DNA of 36,946 nucleotides from Candidatus Stygibacter australis. GTDB lineage: Bacteria > Cloacimonadota > Cloacimonadia > Cloacimonadales > TCS61. The notes under the pieces are model-generated. The model did not search any database, was not told the origin of the DNA, and worked only from the letters and a program-made list of their open reading frames with translations. The DNA is taken from contig JAVCDJ010000270.1 of the NCBI GenBank assembly GCA_030765845.1, forward strand, positions 1 to 36,946, written 5' to 3'. Below are positions 1 through 8,979 of this stretch, piece after piece (position 1 is the stretch's first letter; each line of letters starts with the position of its first letter). The position numbers and the translations under genes are program-made.

Positions 1-1044
1 CTTCTGCATGATGTGGAACTGGAGATGGATGAGACCTTTCAGAAATTGGTGATGATGATCCCTGAATCATTTCAGTATCCTGCTGAAACCGGCTGCTGCA
101 TTAAAATAGGTAAACATATATATCAATCCTTAGACTATCAGTCAGGTAAAAAAGAGCTTAAAAGCAAGATATATTCTGGACGGGAACTGGTGGGGGAAGT
201 GAAAGTTTGTTTGTTAGAGCGCGAACTGGAATTTCTGACAGAAGAATATGACTTATTAAATTCCATAGCAGGAGCTACAGGGGCAATCTACCGTAAACTG
301 CAATCAGAAGAGGAAAAACAGGAGATAGAAGAACGGCTGCGTCAGGCAGACAGACTTGCTACTATCGGACAACTGGCTGCGGGAATAGCACATGAGCTTA
401 ATGAACCTCTTTCCAATATCCTGGGTTATGCCCAGCTTGTGGCAGCAGAATTGCAGACTGGCAGTTCCATGAGCAATGATCTGGAAAAAATAGTCAGTTC
501 ATCATTACATGCCCGGGAGATAGTGCGTAAATTACTTCTTTTTGCGCGTCAAATGCCTATGCAGCGAAGCCAGGTGAATATCAATGAAGTGATCAGTGAA
601 AGTCTGCAGATAGTAGGCAGCCGCATCCGCAAGCATTCCATCAGTTTAAAGCTTGATCTGGCAGATGATCTGCCAGAGATCACTGCAGATACTTCGCAAT
701 TAAAACAGGTGATCATTAACCTGCTGGTGAATGCTGAGCAGGCAATGCCAGGCGGAGGACTTCTGGAGATCATAACCAGAACAAGAAGTAATGAACAAAT
801 CAAGATCAAAATAAAGGATAATGGTGTGGGCATGAACCGCAGCACTCAAAAAAAGATATTTTTGCCCTTCTTTACCACCAAAGAATTAGGTGAAGGAACA
901 GGACTTGGTCTTTCTGTAGTGCATGGAATTGTGAAAGCTCATGGCGGTACGATCAAAGTGAGATCAATCATCGATGAAGGCACTACTGTGATCCTTAATT
1001 TCCCGATCAATTATAATAAAGGACAAAATTATGCCAAAAAGTAA
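1..1044 (+). CDS. Sensor histidine kinase, 5'-truncated by window edge
   Basis: Two-component sensor kinase, expected to autophosphorylate on His and pass phosphate to the regulator that follows. The frame is open through base 1; a GTG at 13 is the first possible start, but the conserved sensor region is already under way, so the true start probably lies upstream. Numbering from that GTG: a small sensor domain at about 1-95, a short coiled-coil linker, the H-box around His127 (AHELNEPLSN), the N-box (INLLVNAEQAM), G1 (DNGVGM), the F-box (FLPFFTTK) and G2 (GTGLGLSVV). No membrane segment is visible, so a cytoplasmic kinase is likely, though the missing N-terminus could change that. It overlaps the response regulator by 14 bases, which indicates co-translation. 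Its sensor domain resembles the N-terminus of the protein at 5662-8820. The kinase assignment is secure; the signal is unknown. Confidence 0.93.
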   Translation, partial: LLHDVELEMDETFQKLVMMIPESFQYPAETGCCIKIGKHIYQSLDYQSGKKELKSKIYSGRELVGEVKVCLLERELEFLTEEYDLLNSIAGATGAIYRKLQSEEEKQEIEERLRQADRLATIGQLAAGIAHELNEPLSNILGYAQLVAAELQTGSSMSNDLEKIVSSSLHAREIVRKLLLFARQMPMQRSQVNINEVISESLQIVGSRIRKHSISLKLDLADDLPEITADTSQLKQVIINLLVNAEQAMPGGGLLEIITRTRSNEQIKIKIKDNGVGMNRSTQKKIFLPFFTTKELGEGTGLGLSVVHGIVKAHGGTIKVRSIIDEGTTVILNFPINYNKGQNYAKK

Positions 1045-2546: not shown

Positions 2547-3833
2547 ATGGATTCAAAGGCTTTTAATCCATTTAGAATGGCACAGGAACAGTTTGATAAG
2601 GTTGCAGATATACTGAACCTTGATCAGGGCTCACGGGAACTGCTCCGCAATCCGATGCGTGAGTATCATTTTAGTATTCCGGTTAAAATGGACGACGGAA
2701 CAACTAAAGTATTTAAGGGATTTCGCGTACAGCATAATGATGCACGCGGACCAGCTAAAGGCGGGATCAGGTTCCATCCTCACGAGACAGCAGACACAGT
2801 GAAGGCTTTATCAACCTGGATGACCTGGAAATGCAGTGTAGTAGATATTCCTCTGGGAGGCAGTAAGGGTGGAGTGATCTGTGATCCTCATAATTTGAGT
2901 GCACGTGAACAGGAACAGATCTGCCGTGGCTGGGTACGCCAGATTGCCTATAATGTGGGACCACTGCGAGATGTTCCGGCTCCAGATGTAATGACCAATG
3001 GTCAGCACATGCTTTGGATGCTTGATGAATATGAAACGATCCATGGCAAAAAATTCCCTGGATTCATCACAGGTAAACCAGTAGGGATGGGTGGCTCATT
3101 AGGTAGAACTGAAGCTACTGGTTATGGAGTAGTATTCACATTAAGAGAAGCTCTGCGTGAGCTGGATATCAATCCTGCTGAAACTACAGCCAGTGTTCAA
3201 GGCTTTGGCAATGTAGCTCAATATGCAATTGAACTTTATACTCAGATGGGTGGAAAAGTGATTTGCGTATCCTGCTGGGATCAGAACGAACAGAAATCAT
3301 TCTCCTTCAAAAAAGAAACTGGAGTCGATCTGGAAGAATTAAGAAGTATAACAGATAGATTTGGTGGAATTGATCAAGCCAAAGCAAAAGAATTTGACTA
3401 TGAAATACTCGATGGTGAAGCCTGGCTTTCTCAGGAAGTGGACATCCTAATACCTGCTGCCATGGAAAACCAGATCCGTAAAGATAATGTAAATAGCATT
3501 AATACAAAAGTGAAAGTGATTGCCGAAGGTGCAAATGGACCTACAACCCCAGAAGCAGATGAAGTAATTCACAAAAACGGCATCTTCGTTATTCCAGATT
3601 TTCTGGCTAATGCCGGTGGCGTTACCTGCAGTTATTTTGAACAGGTGCAGTGCAATATGAATTATTACTGGGAAAAAGATGAGGTGCTCAGCAAGCTTGA
3701 TCTTAAGATGACCTCCGCCTTTTTGGATGTTTCCAGACTTGCCAGAACAAAGGACTTATACATGCGAGATGCAGCATATATCATAGCGATCAATAGAGTT
3801 GCTCAAGCATGTAAAGATAGAGGTTGGGTTTAG
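2547..3833 (+). CDS. gdhA: Glutamate dehydrogenase
   Basis: Cytoplasmic enzyme interconverting glutamate and 2-oxoglutarate plus ammonia with NAD(P). The 428 residues fit the hexameric small-subunit class. The substrate-binding and catalytic lysines are Lys71 (PAKGGIRFHP), Lys95 (TWKCS) and Lys107 (PLGGSKGG), with the 12-residue interval between the last two typical of the family. A Rossmann dinucleotide domain follows, with the glycine-rich turn in the QGFGNVAQYA segment; the C-terminal part holds NAGGVTCSYFE. I cannot settle NAD versus NADP preference. It has its own sigma-54 promoter and lies between a sigma-54 regulator and two ATP-grasp proteins. In an amino-acid fermenter it would supply 2-oxoglutarate and reducing power from glutamate, and so would also use glutamate released by histidine breakdown (hutI is in this window). 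Confidence 0.97.
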   Translation: MDSKAFNPFRMAQEQFDKVADILNLDQGSRELLRNPMREYHFSIPVKMDDGTTKVFKGFRVQHNDARGPAKGGIRFHPHETADTVKALSTWMTWKCSVVDIPLGGSKGGVICDPHNLSAREQEQICRGWVRQIAYNVGPLRDVPAPDVMTNGQHMLWMLDEYETIHGKKFPGFITGKPVGMGGSLGRTEATGYGVVFTLREALRELDINPAETTASVQGFGNVAQYAIELYTQMGGKVICVSCWDQNEQKSFSFKKETGVDLEELRSITDRFGGIDQAKAKEFDYEILDGEAWLSQEVDILIPAAMENQIRKDNVNSINTKVKVIAEGANGPTTPEADEVIHKNGIFVIPDFLANAGGVTCSYFEQVQCNMNYYWEKDEVLSKLDLKMTSAFLDVSRLARTKDLYMRDAAYIIAINRVAQACKDRGWV

Positions 3834-3925: not shown

Positions 3926-5665
3926 ATGGAATTCACAGGTGATCAGAGGAAATACTCAAGAGAGAATAGAACCCGAACATTTGATTTTCTGGGCAAAGGT
4001 GAACCTGGAGGTAAAGCTGCCGGACTGATAAAAATACAGGAACTTCTTGATAAGCAGCTTAATCAATCTGAAGATACTGAGATCACAGTTTCCATTCCCC
4101 GAATGACAGTTATCCTCACTGATATCTTTGATCAATTTATGAAGCAAAATGATCTCTATCCCATAGCCTTGAGTTCATCTGATGATGCCTTTATTGCTCA
4201 TACCTTTCAAAAAGCCAGTCTGCCGCCATCCATAGTAGGAGACCTGCGGAATTTAATCACCGGGACAAAGATCCCTCTGGCAGTGCGTTCATCCAGTCTC
4301 CTGGAAGATTCGACTGCGGAGCCCTTTGCGGGAGTTTATGCCACCAAAATGCTGCCCAATAATCAGCAGGACATCGAAAGCCGGTTTCATAAGCTCACTG
4401 AGGCAATAAAATATATTTATTCCTCTCTATTCTTTTCAGATTCACGTGATTATTTCCAAACAATTGGCAGAAAAGTGGAAGAGGAAAAAATGGCAGTGAT
4501 CATTCAGGATGTGGTCGGCAACCGCTATGGGGATAATTTCTATCCCCTCATTTCAGGGGTGGGGCGCACCTATAATTATTATCCAATGCAGAACTCCCGA
4601 CGTGAAGACGGAGTTATCAATCTGGCACTTGGTTTAGGCAAAACAATCGTGGATGGTGGAACAGCATGGATATATTGTCCGCACTCACCACAATCACCAC
4701 CGCCTGTTAACAGCAATAAGGACATGCTTGATAACAGTCAGCGGGAATTCTGGTCTATCAAGATGGGCGAGATCAAGGAATTTAATCCCATTTCAGAAAT
4801 AGAATTCATGCAAAAGAACTCGATTGAAAAAGCCGAAGAGGATGGAATAATCTCATTACTTTGCTCCACATATCAGTATGAGAATGACAGCTTTATCTCA
4901 GGCATCCCTGAAAAAGGTGCCAGATTAATTGACTTTTCACCGATTTTAAAATATAATAAAATCCCCTTAAACGAAACTTTAAAAAAACTTCTACATCTCT
5001 GCCATGAAGAATATCAATCTGATGTCGAAATTGAATTTGCTTTAGAAAATAATATCAATGAAACCACTGGCAAGCCTGAATATCATCTGGGATTCCTGCA
5101 GGTGCGAACTATGCTGGCATTAACTGGAAATACAAGCAGAATTTGTGCAGATCATCCTCAATCAGAGATTCTGGCAGAAAGCAATTCCGTATTGGGAAAT
5201 GGCTCACGGGAAGATATATTTGATATTGTCTATGTGAAACCTGACACATTTTATGCAGTGAACAGCCGGACAATTGCCAGTGAAATTGCTCAAATAAATC
5301 GTGAACTTACCAAGGAGAAAAGACCCTATTTATTAATCGGATTTGGCAGATGGGGATCCTCTGATCCCTGGCTGGGCATTCCTGTAACCTGGAGCATGAT
5401 CTCTGGTGCCAAGGCAATTATAGAAGCTACCCTGCCCCAAATGAAACCTGATCTAAGCCAGGGTTCGCATTTCTTTCATAATCTGATCGCTTTTGGTATC
5501 TTTTATCTTTCTATCCAGGAAGAAAAAAAGAAATCTATTGACTGGAAATGGTTAAATACTCAAAAAAATATTACAGAAACAGAGCATGTGAGTCATATTC
5601 GCTGCTCACACAATATTGAAGTAATTGTAGATTGCATCGCAAATAAAGGAGTTATCTTAAAATGA
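3926..5665 (+). CDS. PEP-synthase-like ATP-grasp (PPDK_N) protein, no PEP-forming domains
   Basis: A 579-residue protein related to the N-terminal, ATP-binding part of PEP synthase and pyruvate phosphate dikinase. Visible family marks are GEPGGKAAGL (26-34), AVRSSSLLED (119-128) with PFAGVY following, EKMAVIIQDVVG, DVEIEFALE near 366 and the closing LQVRTM near 390. After this comes a conserved-looking module with GRWGSSDPWLGIPV (about 472) and QGSHFFHNL (about 511). The TSGG-x-TCH phosphohistidine domain and the TIM-barrel PEP/pyruvate domain of true PEP synthase are absent, so PEP synthesis is not expected. The start is fixed by GGAGG at 3915-3919. Its stop overlaps the start of the next gene (ATGA), so the two products are probably made together and may form a complex. 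Function unknown; an ATP-dependent phosphotransfer or regulatory role is inference. Confidence 0.85.
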   Translation: MEFTGDQRKYSRENRTRTFDFLGKGEPGGKAAGLIKIQELLDKQLNQSEDTEITVSIPRMTVILTDIFDQFMKQNDLYPIALSSSDDAFIAHTFQKASLPPSIVGDLRNLITGTKIPLAVRSSSLLEDSTAEPFAGVYATKMLPNNQQDIESRFHKLTEAIKYIYSSLFFSDSRDYFQTIGRKVEEEKMAVIIQDVVGNRYGDNFYPLISGVGRTYNYYPMQNSRREDGVINLALGLGKTIVDGGTAWIYCPHSPQSPPPVNSNKDMLDNSQREFWSIKMGEIKEFNPISEIEFMQKNSIEKAEEDGIISLLCSTYQYENDSFISGIPEKGARLIDFSPILKYNKIPLNETLKKLLHLCHEEYQSDVEIEFALENNINETTGKPEYHLGFLQVRTMLALTGNTSRICADHPQSEILAESNSVLGNGSREDIFDIVYVKPDTFYAVNSRTIASEIAQINRELTKEKRPYLLIGFGRWGSSDPWLGIPVTWSMISGAKAIIEATLPQMKPDLSQGSHFFHNLIAFGIFYLSIQEEKKKSIDWKWLNTQKNITETEHVSHIRCSHNIEVIVDCIANKGVILK

Positions 5666-8600
5666 CCGATGAACTGCATATTAAAAGTATTTTAAATAAC
5701 CTCAATGAACGGAAAAAAGAGCTGAATTGCATCTACCAGATCAGTGAGATCCTCAATAAAGTTGACCAGCCATTAGCAACCGCGCTGCGAAAAGTGATCG
5801 AACTGATGCCATATGGCTGGCAATATAGTGATAACTGTACGGTTCAGATAATATACGATGACGAAGTGTTCCATAGTCCACAATTCGTCAAAAGCGATCT
5901 ATGGCAGGAAAGTGATCTGATCATTGATGATAAATGCGTAGGTAATGTGAAGGTATTTTATAATGATGCCAGTCTCGAATTTCTGGCTGAAGAACAGCAG
6001 CTTTTGGATACAATCTGTAAAAAACTTTCAATTTTCCTACACCGCATCCTATTAAAGAAGTTATTATTCGATCTGGAGCATGCTTCAGATAACCAAAAGC
6101 ATAAGCCTGAATGGAAAACAATAATTGAACTGCTGCGGCACACAGATTCTGATAATTATCTGCGTATTGCCCGTAAATTAATGAACTATCTATTCTGGAT
6201 AGGCAGAACAGAATCACAATGCCATCCAGATTCCATAGAATGCAGTACAGAAAATATTGAACCAGAAGGACTGCTGTTCTCAAACAAACCCATAGACCGC
6301 CAGGATAAAGAAACGCTTCTTGAACAGAGCAAACACATCTTTCAACTGGCAGAGAATAATCTTGATGATGTTGAAATACTCCTTAACATCCAGAAATGGC
6401 TTCAGGAAGATAAATTGAACTTTCTTACGCAGACACTGGAAGATATGGCAACTTCTCTCAGCGACATTCAAAATGCTTTAGAGAGGTATTTCTACCTTAA
6501 TCTTGATAAAATTGAGCTCTCATACTATACTAAAAAGAATCTAAGTGTTTCTCTTATTCTGCGTTTCTTTACTGATCAACTGCAATTCATCAATATTGCC
6601 AAAGATTTTGTTGATATCAATTATTTCCGGGAACTTACCAGACACATGATCTTCCCGGCAAACAGTCATGGCAAGCTGGGCGGTAAGAGCGCCGGGATAT
6701 TTCTGGCAAAAAGCATAACTTCTACCATGTTTGGGAATAAACTGCATGACATCAATATCTGCTACCCAAACACCTGGTACATTACCTCAAATACTATGCA
6801 CCGTTTTCTTTATTACAATAATCTTGAAGAGATCATTGAGCAGAAATATAAAGAGATTGAACAGGTACGCTCTGAATATGCCAATATTATTCAGCTTTTC
6901 AAAAACTCCTATTTCCCACCGGAGATCATCAAGGAATTTAATCGGGCAATCGAAGATTTTGGGGATAATCCTATTATAGTGCGTTCATCAAGCCTTCTCG
7001 AAGACCGTGTAGGAGCAGTATTTTCCGGTAAATATAAAAGCCTGTTCCTCGCTAACCAAGGCACTCGGATCGAAAAGATCAATGCTTTAGCTGATGCCGT
7101 TGCTGAGGTTTATGCCTCAGTATTCTCCCCTGATCCCATTGAATATCGCCGCGAACGTGGCTTACTGGATTTTCACGAGGAAATGGCTATCATCATCCAG
7201 CAGGTGGTTGGCAAAAAGGTCGGTGATTATTTCCTCCCTGCCTTTGCCGGAGTGGCTTTCAGTCACAATGAATTCCGCTGGTCACCACGTATCAAACAGG
7301 ATGACGGGCTCATCCGCATAGTTCCGGGATTAGGAACTCGAGCTGTTGACCGGCTCAGTGATGATTATCCCATATTGATAGCACCCGGACAACCAGACCT
7401 GCGTGTAAACATAACTCCTGATGAAGTCTGCCGTTATTCACCTCACAAAATTGATGTTATCAATCTTAAAAAGAACACATTCGAAACCATCGAGATCAAA
7501 AAGCTGCTGAAAGAGTATGGCGATGAATATCCTATGGCAGATAAAATCCTCTCATTCTACGAAAATGGTGACATCCGCAATCTCAATAAATTCCAGATGA
7601 ATTTTGCCAGCTCCGATCCCATAGTAACTTTTCATGGTCTTAATCATACTTCTAAAAAATATGTAAGCTTGATTGGTGATATTCTCACTTTATTGAAACG
7701 CAAAACTGATGCTCCGGTAGATATTGAGTTTGCCTGTGATGGTGATGATTTCTATCTGCTACAATGCCGGGCACAAAGCTCTAAAATATCTGAACAGGTT
7801 GCTGCCATTCCCAAAGATGTCCCCCAGGATCAAATACTCTTTAGTGCAAACCGCTTTATAGCAAATGGCTATCTTCCCGAAATCACCCATATCGTATATG
7901 TTACTCCCCAGGGCTACAGCAGTCTCACCACGCTGGAGGATATGAAAAGCGTGGCAAGAGCAGTAGGTAAGATCAATAAACTGCTTCCCAAACGTAAATT
8001 TATCCTCATGGGTCCCGGACGCTGGGGCAGCCGCGGTGATATAAAACTGGGTGTAAGCGTCACTTATTCTGATATTAATAACACTGCTGTGCTTATCGAA
8101 ATCGCTCGCAAAAAAGGTCACTTCACTTCCGACCTGTCCTTTGGTACTCATTTCTTTCAAGACCTGGTGGAATCTAATATTCTCTACCTGCCATTGTATC
8201 CTGATGAAGAAAATAATGTCTTTAATAACAGATTCCTGAATTCAGCAGAAAATATTCTGCCTGATATTGCCCCTGAATTTGCCTATCTCTCTGATACTAT
8301 CCGTGTTATCGATATCCCTGCCACGTGTGATGGCAAAGTATTGAAAATACTTATGAACGCTGACCTTGATGAAGCATTAGCACATTTTGCACCCAGAAAC
8401 TCAGCCAGCTCCGTTTCTTCAAATGTGATGATGCCAGCGGAAACCGTTACAGAAAATCACTGGCTCTGGCGCCAGCGTATTGCAGAAAAAATCGCCAGTA
8501 TGATCAAAGCAGAACTTTTTGGCGTACAAGCCATGTATATCTTTGGCTCAGTAAAAAATGCCAATGCCGGACCTGCCAGTGATATTGATCTGCTGCTGCA

Positions 8601-8820
8601 TTTTACCGGTGATGACCAGCAGCGCAGAGAATTACTTAACTGGCTGCAGGGCTGGAGCCTGTGCCTTTCTGAAATGAACTACCTGCGTACCGGATATAAA
8701 ACTGATGGGCTGCTCGATGTCCACCTTATTACTGATAAAGATATTGCAGCAGAATCCAGTTATGCAGTTAAGATCAATGCTGTCACTGATTCGGCAAAAC
8801 CCCTGAAAATGGAGGATTAA
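5662..8820 (+). CDS. Sensor / PPDK_N ATP-grasp / nucleotidyltransferase fusion
   Basis: A 1052-residue multidomain protein. Residues about 35-135 form a sensor domain resembling that of the histidine kinase at 1-1044 (shared QY near the start, VGnVKV and LEFLaEE at the end). Residues 140-330 are mostly helical (NYLRIARKLMNYL near 167). The PEP-synthase-type ATP-grasp region runs from GKLGGKSAG (337) through IVRSSSLLED (about 438), MAIIIQQVVG (about 508) and VDIEFACDG...LLQCRA (686-705). Then GRWGSRGD (about 786) and FGTHFFQDL (about 827) match the sister protein. Residues about 942-1035 are a polymerase-beta-type nucleotidyltransferase with Gly962-Ser963, Asp974/Asp976 (SDIDL) and a third acid Asp1019 (LLDVHL), so the catalytic triad looks intact. 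Phosphohistidine and PEP-binding domains are missing. The ATGA overlap with the previous gene gives coupling. A sensor-controlled modifying enzyme is my inference; the target is unknown. Confidence 0.85.
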   Translation: MTDELHIKSILNNLNERKKELNCIYQISEILNKVDQPLATALRKVIELMPYGWQYSDNCTVQIIYDDEVFHSPQFVKSDLWQESDLIIDDKCVGNVKVFYNDASLEFLAEEQQLLDTICKKLSIFLHRILLKKLLFDLEHASDNQKHKPEWKTIIELLRHTDSDNYLRIARKLMNYLFWIGRTESQCHPDSIECSTENIEPEGLLFSNKPIDRQDKETLLEQSKHIFQLAENNLDDVEILLNIQKWLQEDKLNFLTQTLEDMATSLSDIQNALERYFYLNLDKIELSYYTKKNLSVSLILRFFTDQLQFINIAKDFVDINYFRELTRHMIFPANSHGKLGGKSAGIFLAKSITSTMFGNKLHDINICYPNTWYITSNTMHRFLYYNNLEEIIEQKYKEIEQVRSEYANIIQLFKNSYFPPEIIKEFNRAIEDFGDNPIIVRSSSLLEDRVGAVFSGKYKSLFLANQGTRIEKINALADAVAEVYASVFSPDPIEYRRERGLLDFHEEMAIIIQQVVGKKVGDYFLPAFAGVAFSHNEFRWSPRIKQDDGLIRIVPGLGTRAVDRLSDDYPILIAPGQPDLRVNITPDEVCRYSPHKIDVINLKKNTFETIEIKKLLKEYGDEYPMADKILSFYENGDIRNLNKFQMNFASSDPIVTFHGLNHTSKKYVSLIGDILTLLKRKTDAPVDIEFACDGDDFYLLQCRAQSSKISEQVAAIPKDVPQDQILFSANRFIANGYLPEITHIVYVTPQGYSSLTTLEDMKSVARAVGKINKLLPKRKFILMGPGRWGSRGDIKLGVSVTYSDINNTAVLIEIARKKGHFTSDLSFGTHFFQDLVESNILYLPLYPDEENNVFNNRFLNSAENILPDIAPEFAYLSDTIRVIDIPATCDGKVLKILMNADLDEALAHFAPRNSASSVSSNVMMPAETVTENHWLWRQRIAEKIASMIKAELFGVQAMYIFGSVKNANAGPASDIDLLLHFTGDDQQRRELLNWLQGWSLCLSEMNYLRTGYKTDGLLDVHLITDKDIAAESSYAVKINAVTDSAKPLKMED
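8811..8815 (+). promoter_or_regulatory. Ribosome binding site for the TTG-start small gene
   Basis: GGAGG lies inside the last codons of the fusion gene, five bases before a TTG at 8821. It is what makes the TTG credible as a start. Confidence 0.7.
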
Positions 8821-8979
8821 TTGAAAGACCCTCCTCCAAAAACAGAGAAGGATAAAAATAAACTACCTGCCCCCAAAAAACAGACTTTTAAAGGATTATG
8901 TATTAATTGCGATCACAGATTTACCTGCACACTCCCGCGTCCCGAATCCGGGGTCTGGTATTGCGAAGAATACGAATAG
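8821..8979 (+). CDS. 52-residue four-cysteine (zinc-ribbon-like) small protein
   Basis: A short gene starting with TTG directly after the TAA of the fusion protein, preceded by GGAGG at 8811-8815 and ending at TAG 8977-8979. The first 24 residues are charged and rich in Lys and Pro, probably disordered. The rest is a compact module, CINCDHRFTC followed 12 residues later by another Cys (VWYCEEYE), giving Cys27, Cys30, Cys36 and Cys48: a likely zinc site. My recollection, unchecked, is that similar short 'GLCxNCxxRxTC' proteins occur as hypotheticals in other anaerobes. It is the last gene before a strong terminator, so it is co-transcribed with the ATP-grasp pair. A small partner or adaptor is possible, but its function is unknown. 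Confidence 0.75.
   Translation: MKDPPPKTEKDKNKLPAPKKQTFKGLCINCDHRFTCTLPRPESGVWYCEEYE

Follow-up and report, generated by a model that had tools for sequence, protein, structure and literature searches.

Most bacteria match ammonia assimilation to carbon supply through P-II, often with GlnD and GlnE. In the type VII toxin-antitoxin system MntA/HepT, MntA AMPylates its partner protein (PMC7641770). PspR, a PPS-like protein of haloarchaea, shows by precedent that a PEP-synthase-like protein can serve as a regulator (PMC10948481). The window, by which is meant the whole stretch of DNA analysed (36,946 nucleotides), carries a 1052-aa protein with likenesses to these systems. Its locus is a candidate for the control of ammonia assimilation in a clade where no P-II, GlnD or GlnE was detected, and its set of proteins is inherited together with one type of glutamate dehydrogenase (GDH). 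P-II (PF00543) was not found in the window genome; of 99 genomes from the window's phylum 3 have it, and none of these bears the 1052-aa protein. No GlnD/GlnE-type domain was found in 40 genomes, the window genome and 39 relatives, PF08335 being searched genome-wide. It was also observed that many of the 96 phylum genomes from which P-II is missing are without the 1052-aa protein as well.

A single ORF encodes the protein and overlaps the upstream ORF of a sister protein by 4 bp. Its parts are as follows.

5662-8820, forward strand: the 1052-aa protein, from the ORF call, profile search, alignment and an AlphaFold model
5662-6066, forward strand: GAF-like sensor domain, residues 1-135, common to the histidine kinase of the operon; Foldseek match 6ob8
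6109-6651, forward strand: helical linker segment, residues 150-330, conserved and without a Pfam match
6673-7827, forward strand: PPDK_N-type ATP-grasp, residues 338-722, with conserved K342, R441, E689, Q701 and R703
7828-8406, forward strand: unnamed GRWG domain, residues 723-915, with GPGRWGS at 784-790 and an invariant His830, without a Pfam or PDB match
8449-8817, forward strand: nucleotidyltransferase (NTase) domain, residues 930-1052, with G962, S963, D974, D976, D1019, H1021 and S1033

The Pfam match to PPDK_N (PF01326) at residues 338-722 has an E value of 3e-58, and the match to Polbeta/NTP_transf_2 at residues 942-991 (E 5e-6 to 2e-5) is above the Pfam gathering cut-offs. An earlier note on this DNA had described three modules in one chain, a sensor, an ATP-grasp region and an NTase. 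All three were confirmed with their key residues in place: VRSSSLLED at 440-448, LQCRA at 700-704, G962-S963, D974/D976 and D1019. The helical segment and the GRWG domain had been overlooked. The N-terminal sensor is real, since the same domain is found in the upstream histidine kinase and since GAF-type sensor kinases (6ob8) are among the Foldseek matches, where they were assigned to the N-terminus. Homologues in many phyla retain the architecture over its full length, at 44-54% identity, so it is more than chance. The note had also proposed profile searches and a structure prediction of the full chain. The searches mapped PPDK_N and Polbeta/NTP_transf_2 and gave no match to PF00391 (PEP-utilizers). 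The AlphaFold model (pLDDT 74) led Foldseek to rifampin phosphotransferase and PPDK for the core, but residues 785-841, the most conserved stretch, are low-confidence in it and a domain-only model was therefore used for the GRWG domain. The claim that the phosphohistidine and PEP-binding domains are absent stood as far as known domains at E≤1 are concerned. PF00391 has no match in the contig carrying the gene, although three other genes of the genome match it; the PEP/pyruvate-binding TIM barrel has no Pfam match in the protein, and no rifampin-binding domain was found there.

The catalytic positions K342, R441, E689, Q701 and R703 are conserved in the homologues, and motifs place the first three of these at Lys22, Arg117 and Glu297 of rifampin phosphotransferase (PMC4844700). 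Given this conservation, it is plausible from the sequence that the ATP site of the core is active. The GRWG domain is among the best-conserved parts of the chain and contains SFGTHFFQDL around His830. This domain recurs in the 579-aa sister (GFGRWGSS ... SQGSHFFHNL, with His515), and GRWG and the histidine are invariant in an alignment of 34 sequences. The domain model built from the sister is confident (pLDDT 90) and gave no PDB match at E≤0.001 in Foldseek, the best E being 0.05; the domain has no Pfam match and no convincing PDB sequence match. It is a conserved domain beyond what the earlier sequence reading recognised. A divergent phosphohistidine domain around His830 was considered as SFGTHFFQDLVESNILYLP is by eye like GGRTCHAAIIARELGIP of PEP synthase. 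This was dropped as the PF00391 search, a profile-profile alignment (hhalign) and Foldseek of the domain model all came back empty.

The neighbouring genes are as follows.

13-1044, forward strand: sensor histidine kinase (HK), C-terminal 343 aa, HisKA/HATPase_c, with its N-terminus on contig C255
1031-2353, forward strand: NtrC-type sigma-54 response regulator, with Response_reg, Sigma54_activat and HTH_8
2547-3833, forward strand: glutamate dehydrogenase GDH1 (gdhA), 428 aa from ATG, ELFV_dehydrog; the ORF may start at a TTG at 2490
3926-5665, forward strand: sister protein, 579 aa, with PPDK_N (28-396) and, by alignment, the GRWG domain
8821-8979, forward strand: cysteine-rich 52-aa protein with a TTG start, conserved in some relatives only

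The order HK, NtrC-type regulator, GDH, sister, 1052-aa protein recurs in relatives, and the regulator upstream of GDH is conserved in several of them. Contig C255 ends in the same 106 bp with which the window begins (1-106, an exact match), so the HK continues there and is extended by about 240 residues; the sensor domain is common to it and the 1052-aa protein. The sister has neither sensor nor NTase, and its ATP-grasp residues and invariant His515 are intact. The 52-aa protein, whose gene abuts that of the 1052-aa protein, had been suggested as a partner. It is a weak candidate, since among the loci examined only those of close relatives and a handful of others have it (six loci with relatives).

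The linkage to GDH was assessed at loci found through the 1052-aa protein alone and having at least 3.5 kb of upstream flank. At 41 of these 44 loci, in several phyla, the gene has GDH1 as its neighbour on the same strand. The GDH-linked records are from Cloacimonadota-type genomes, Marinimicrobia, Ignavibacteria, Bacteroidetes, Spirochaetes and Deltaproteobacteria, one record from the last having GDH downstream of the 1052-aa-type gene. The window's phylum was sampled with 99 genomes; among the matches listed, the fused protein was present in 22 of the 23 genomes with GDH1 (68% identity or more) against none of the 76 without it, recalling that the collections are mostly MAGs in which absences may be gaps and that the Fisher P values for co-occurrence ignore phylogeny. 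The lone GDH1 genome without the fused protein is 77% complete. A second GDH family (33% identical) has paralogs of 982-1018 aa with PPDK_N and GRWG in its vicinity in 34 of the 57 genomes listed (hand tally) and directly adjacent at five loci; one of the paralogs has a weak receiver-like N-terminal match. Given these paralogs, PPDK_N-GRWG proteins are companions of GDH in general. The GDH linkage of the 1052-aa protein is real and old, and at five loci it is kept despite erosion or loss of the NTase. The fusion claimed earlier is supported, and its linkage to gdhA and a two-component system is old and strong, gdhA and signalling genes being kept beside the gene across phyla. What had been overlooked is a metallophosphoesterase (MPE), which is the best clue to mechanism.

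The MPE was assigned to PF00149 by Pfam and its likely metal-ligand residues (D9, H11, D37, N85, H191, H239 and H241) are conserved. It is found at most 1 kb from the fused gene in 36 of 49 loci, in both orientations: genomes of the window's phylum have it downstream of the fused gene and on its strand, and in other phyla the two genes are convergent. Neither in the window nor in its closest relatives does the MPE directly adjoin the 1052-aa gene; the window genome has it at 3317-4153 of C255, in divergent orientation to the HK and some 0.8 kb upstream of where the window starts. In the phylum sample the MPE is present in 28 of the 32 genomes with the NTase against 1 of the 67 others, the NTase being scored as absent among the matches listed, with strong matches sorting first. 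In the sole MPE genome counted as having no NTase, an NTase fragment adjoins the MPE. No MPE was detected in four genomes with an intact or nearly complete NTase (G099, G076, G095 and G064) or in G024, which has a truncated gene only; NTase genomes with no detected MPE mostly involve contig ends or fragmented assemblies. At one locus (L191, 3011-4230) a 69-aa NTase fragment, probably a broken NTase gene, was seen next to an intact MPE.

The NTase is also found without the core, as sensor plus NTase (314-324 aa, four genomes) or as NTase alone (127-146 aa, six genomes). All ten of these genes are directly followed by an MPE of about 280 aa, none is beside GDH, and their genomes (loci L064-L067 and L068-L073) are without GDH1. 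The NTase and MPE are a separable pair.

The two are also lost together. The MPE is missing genome-wide from G107, G117, G118 and G119 and from seven other genomes (G159, G175, G194, G259, G320, G348 and G412). The NTase is absent from G117, has lost the second acidic residue in G107 and G119 and is degenerate in G118; in most of the other seven it is among the lowest-scoring matches and its C-terminus is eroded. The earlier note would have been refuted by degraded acidic residues in close homologues. The NTase active-site residues are conserved in most homologues, and G962, S963, D974, D976 and D1019 (GS...DxD...D) are invariant in the 54 that bear the MPE; the acidic residues are lost in a minority, which also lacks the MPE. 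Ser1033, in the motif TS(F/Y/W)AxKIxAxTDxA, was counted in 64 sequences. All 54 sequences with the MPE keep it and 9 of the 10 without have lost it, a more frequent loss than that of the catalytic residues. In a tree built from the core without the NTase, the MPE state switches 7 times; Ser1033 goes in the same direction as the MPE in 6 independent pairs (5.7 on average; p 0.03). Read most simply, these sequence patterns point to NTase and MPE working as a pair to which Ser1033 is important, as a modification site, a docking site or part of the active site. Two loci (L021 and L022) are without an NTase, yet the MPE is present in their genomes; in G114 it adjoins a second, NTase-bearing copy of the protein. 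At least one genome (among L021, L022 and L123) has two copies, one without an NTase and one with an NTase beside the MPE.

The above results suggest, with a probability of roughly one half, that the 1052-aa protein is a sensor-controlled regulator of GDH1, that its NTase attaches a nucleotidyl mark to one of the proteins of the module and that the MPE removes this mark. The GAF-like sensor would read the same signal as the HK of the operon, and this signal would control the ATP-grasp/GRWG core, which together with the sister would act on GDH1. The C-terminal NTase would attach the mark, an NMP, to GDH, to the sister or to its own C-terminus, and the partner MPE would take it off. Here we infer a regulating rather than a merely accompanying role of the core, a protein as substrate of the NTase, the MPE as eraser, and what the target may be. 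Since the GDH linkage follows the core and the MPE follows the NTase, this target may lie within the module (GDH, the sister or the 1052-aa protein itself) or outside it. GDH as the simple target of the NTase, as first suggested, has the proximity of gdhA in its favour, but NTase-MPE pairs occur in genomes without GDH1 and the GDH linkage survives loss of the NTase, so the target need not be GDH1. The same observations, of pairs that stand alone or with the sensor only and are separable, and of GDH linkage persisting without an intact NTase, would be expected if two functions had been joined, the core and sister regulating GDH while the NTase and MPE, under the same sensor, act outside the GDH module on RNA, a small molecule or another protein. 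This is less likely, as the NTase is mostly fused to the GDH-linked core across phyla, and the stand-alone cases seen all belong to one family, that of the window, and resemble fused forms that have split.

It is unlikely that, instead of regulating, the core catalyses a metabolic step, as a phosphotransferase or ligase of the ATP-grasp type with a substrate from glutamate or ammonia metabolism; the GRWG domain would then be the acceptor-substrate site and GDH a pathway neighbour. The ATP-grasp residues are intact in both the 1052-aa protein and the sister, the nearest structures, rifampin phosphotransferase and the HpeI kinase subunit, act on small molecules (PMC4844700, PMC12167813), and the invariant His830/His515 could be a phosphate carrier. 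However, the sensor domain, the receiver-type paralogs and the two-component partners point to signalling, and two separate GDH families have PPDK_N-GRWG partners. A captured toxin-antitoxin-like (MNT) or defence module is very improbable. The similarity to the MntA antitoxin family NF047752 is weak (21.4 bits against a curated cut-off of 60 bits, on which membership was rejected), the partner is the MPE, and synteny with gdhA is conserved over phyla, unlike mobile toxin-antitoxin loci; no HEPN partner was seen among the conserved neighbours (GDH, sister and MPE), the HEPN profile having been run on some neighbours at most.

To return to the regulator of GDH1 with its writer and eraser, NTase and MPE are paired whether the NTase is fused, joined to the sensor only or free-standing, and the two have disappeared together several times, which points to a nucleotidyl mark that can be reversed. 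More tentatively, the locus could provide nitrogen control independent of P-II, in which the sensor/ATP-grasp/GRWG protein and its sister govern GDH and the minimal NTase and its MPE eraser set its state by reversible nucleotidylation, possibly at the NTase's own Ser1033. If true, this would be an undescribed kind of writer/eraser pair around a domain fold without known relatives. The eraser, if it is one, would come from a superfamily for which the literature searched gave no such role, and the open-access literature gave no account of the architecture, of GDH nucleotidylation by a PPDK-like protein or of an MPE as a de-AMPylase.

The 1052-aa protein can now be compared with the known systems. 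It shares with PEP synthase, PPDK and rifampin phosphotransferase (RPH) the PPDK_N ATP-grasp and the conserved Lys, Arg, Glu and Gln-x-Arg positions, and its best Foldseek matches are 5hv3 (E 8e-12), 5hv6 (TM 0.70 by target length) and HpeI (9goj). It differs from them in being without PF00391, PEP-binding and rifampin-binding domains and, compared also with two-component kinases such as HpeHI, in adding the sensor, the GRWG domain and the NTase; as it has no His domain it is not a member of this family. PspR differs in that it keeps the His domain and binds DNA, and its abstract reports neither an NTase nor a link to GDH (PMC10948481). In being a minimal NTase (about 120 aa) and in its GS...DxD, the NTase resembles MntA of MntA/HepT, but its score is far below the family cut-off and thus it is not an MntA; it has the MPE as partner instead of HEPN and a C-terminal TSFAxKIxAxTD motif. 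With GlnD and GlnE it shares a sensor and an NTase in a nitrogen-assimilation setting and the GS...DxD...D active site. The protein is without the GlnD/GlnE Pfam domain (PF08335), HD or ACT domains, and no P-II was found, so it is not a member of that family either; its NTase is of the minimal single-domain type and the putative eraser is a separate MPE. By analogy, the 1052-aa protein may work as GlnD and GlnE do, by reversible nucleotidylation.
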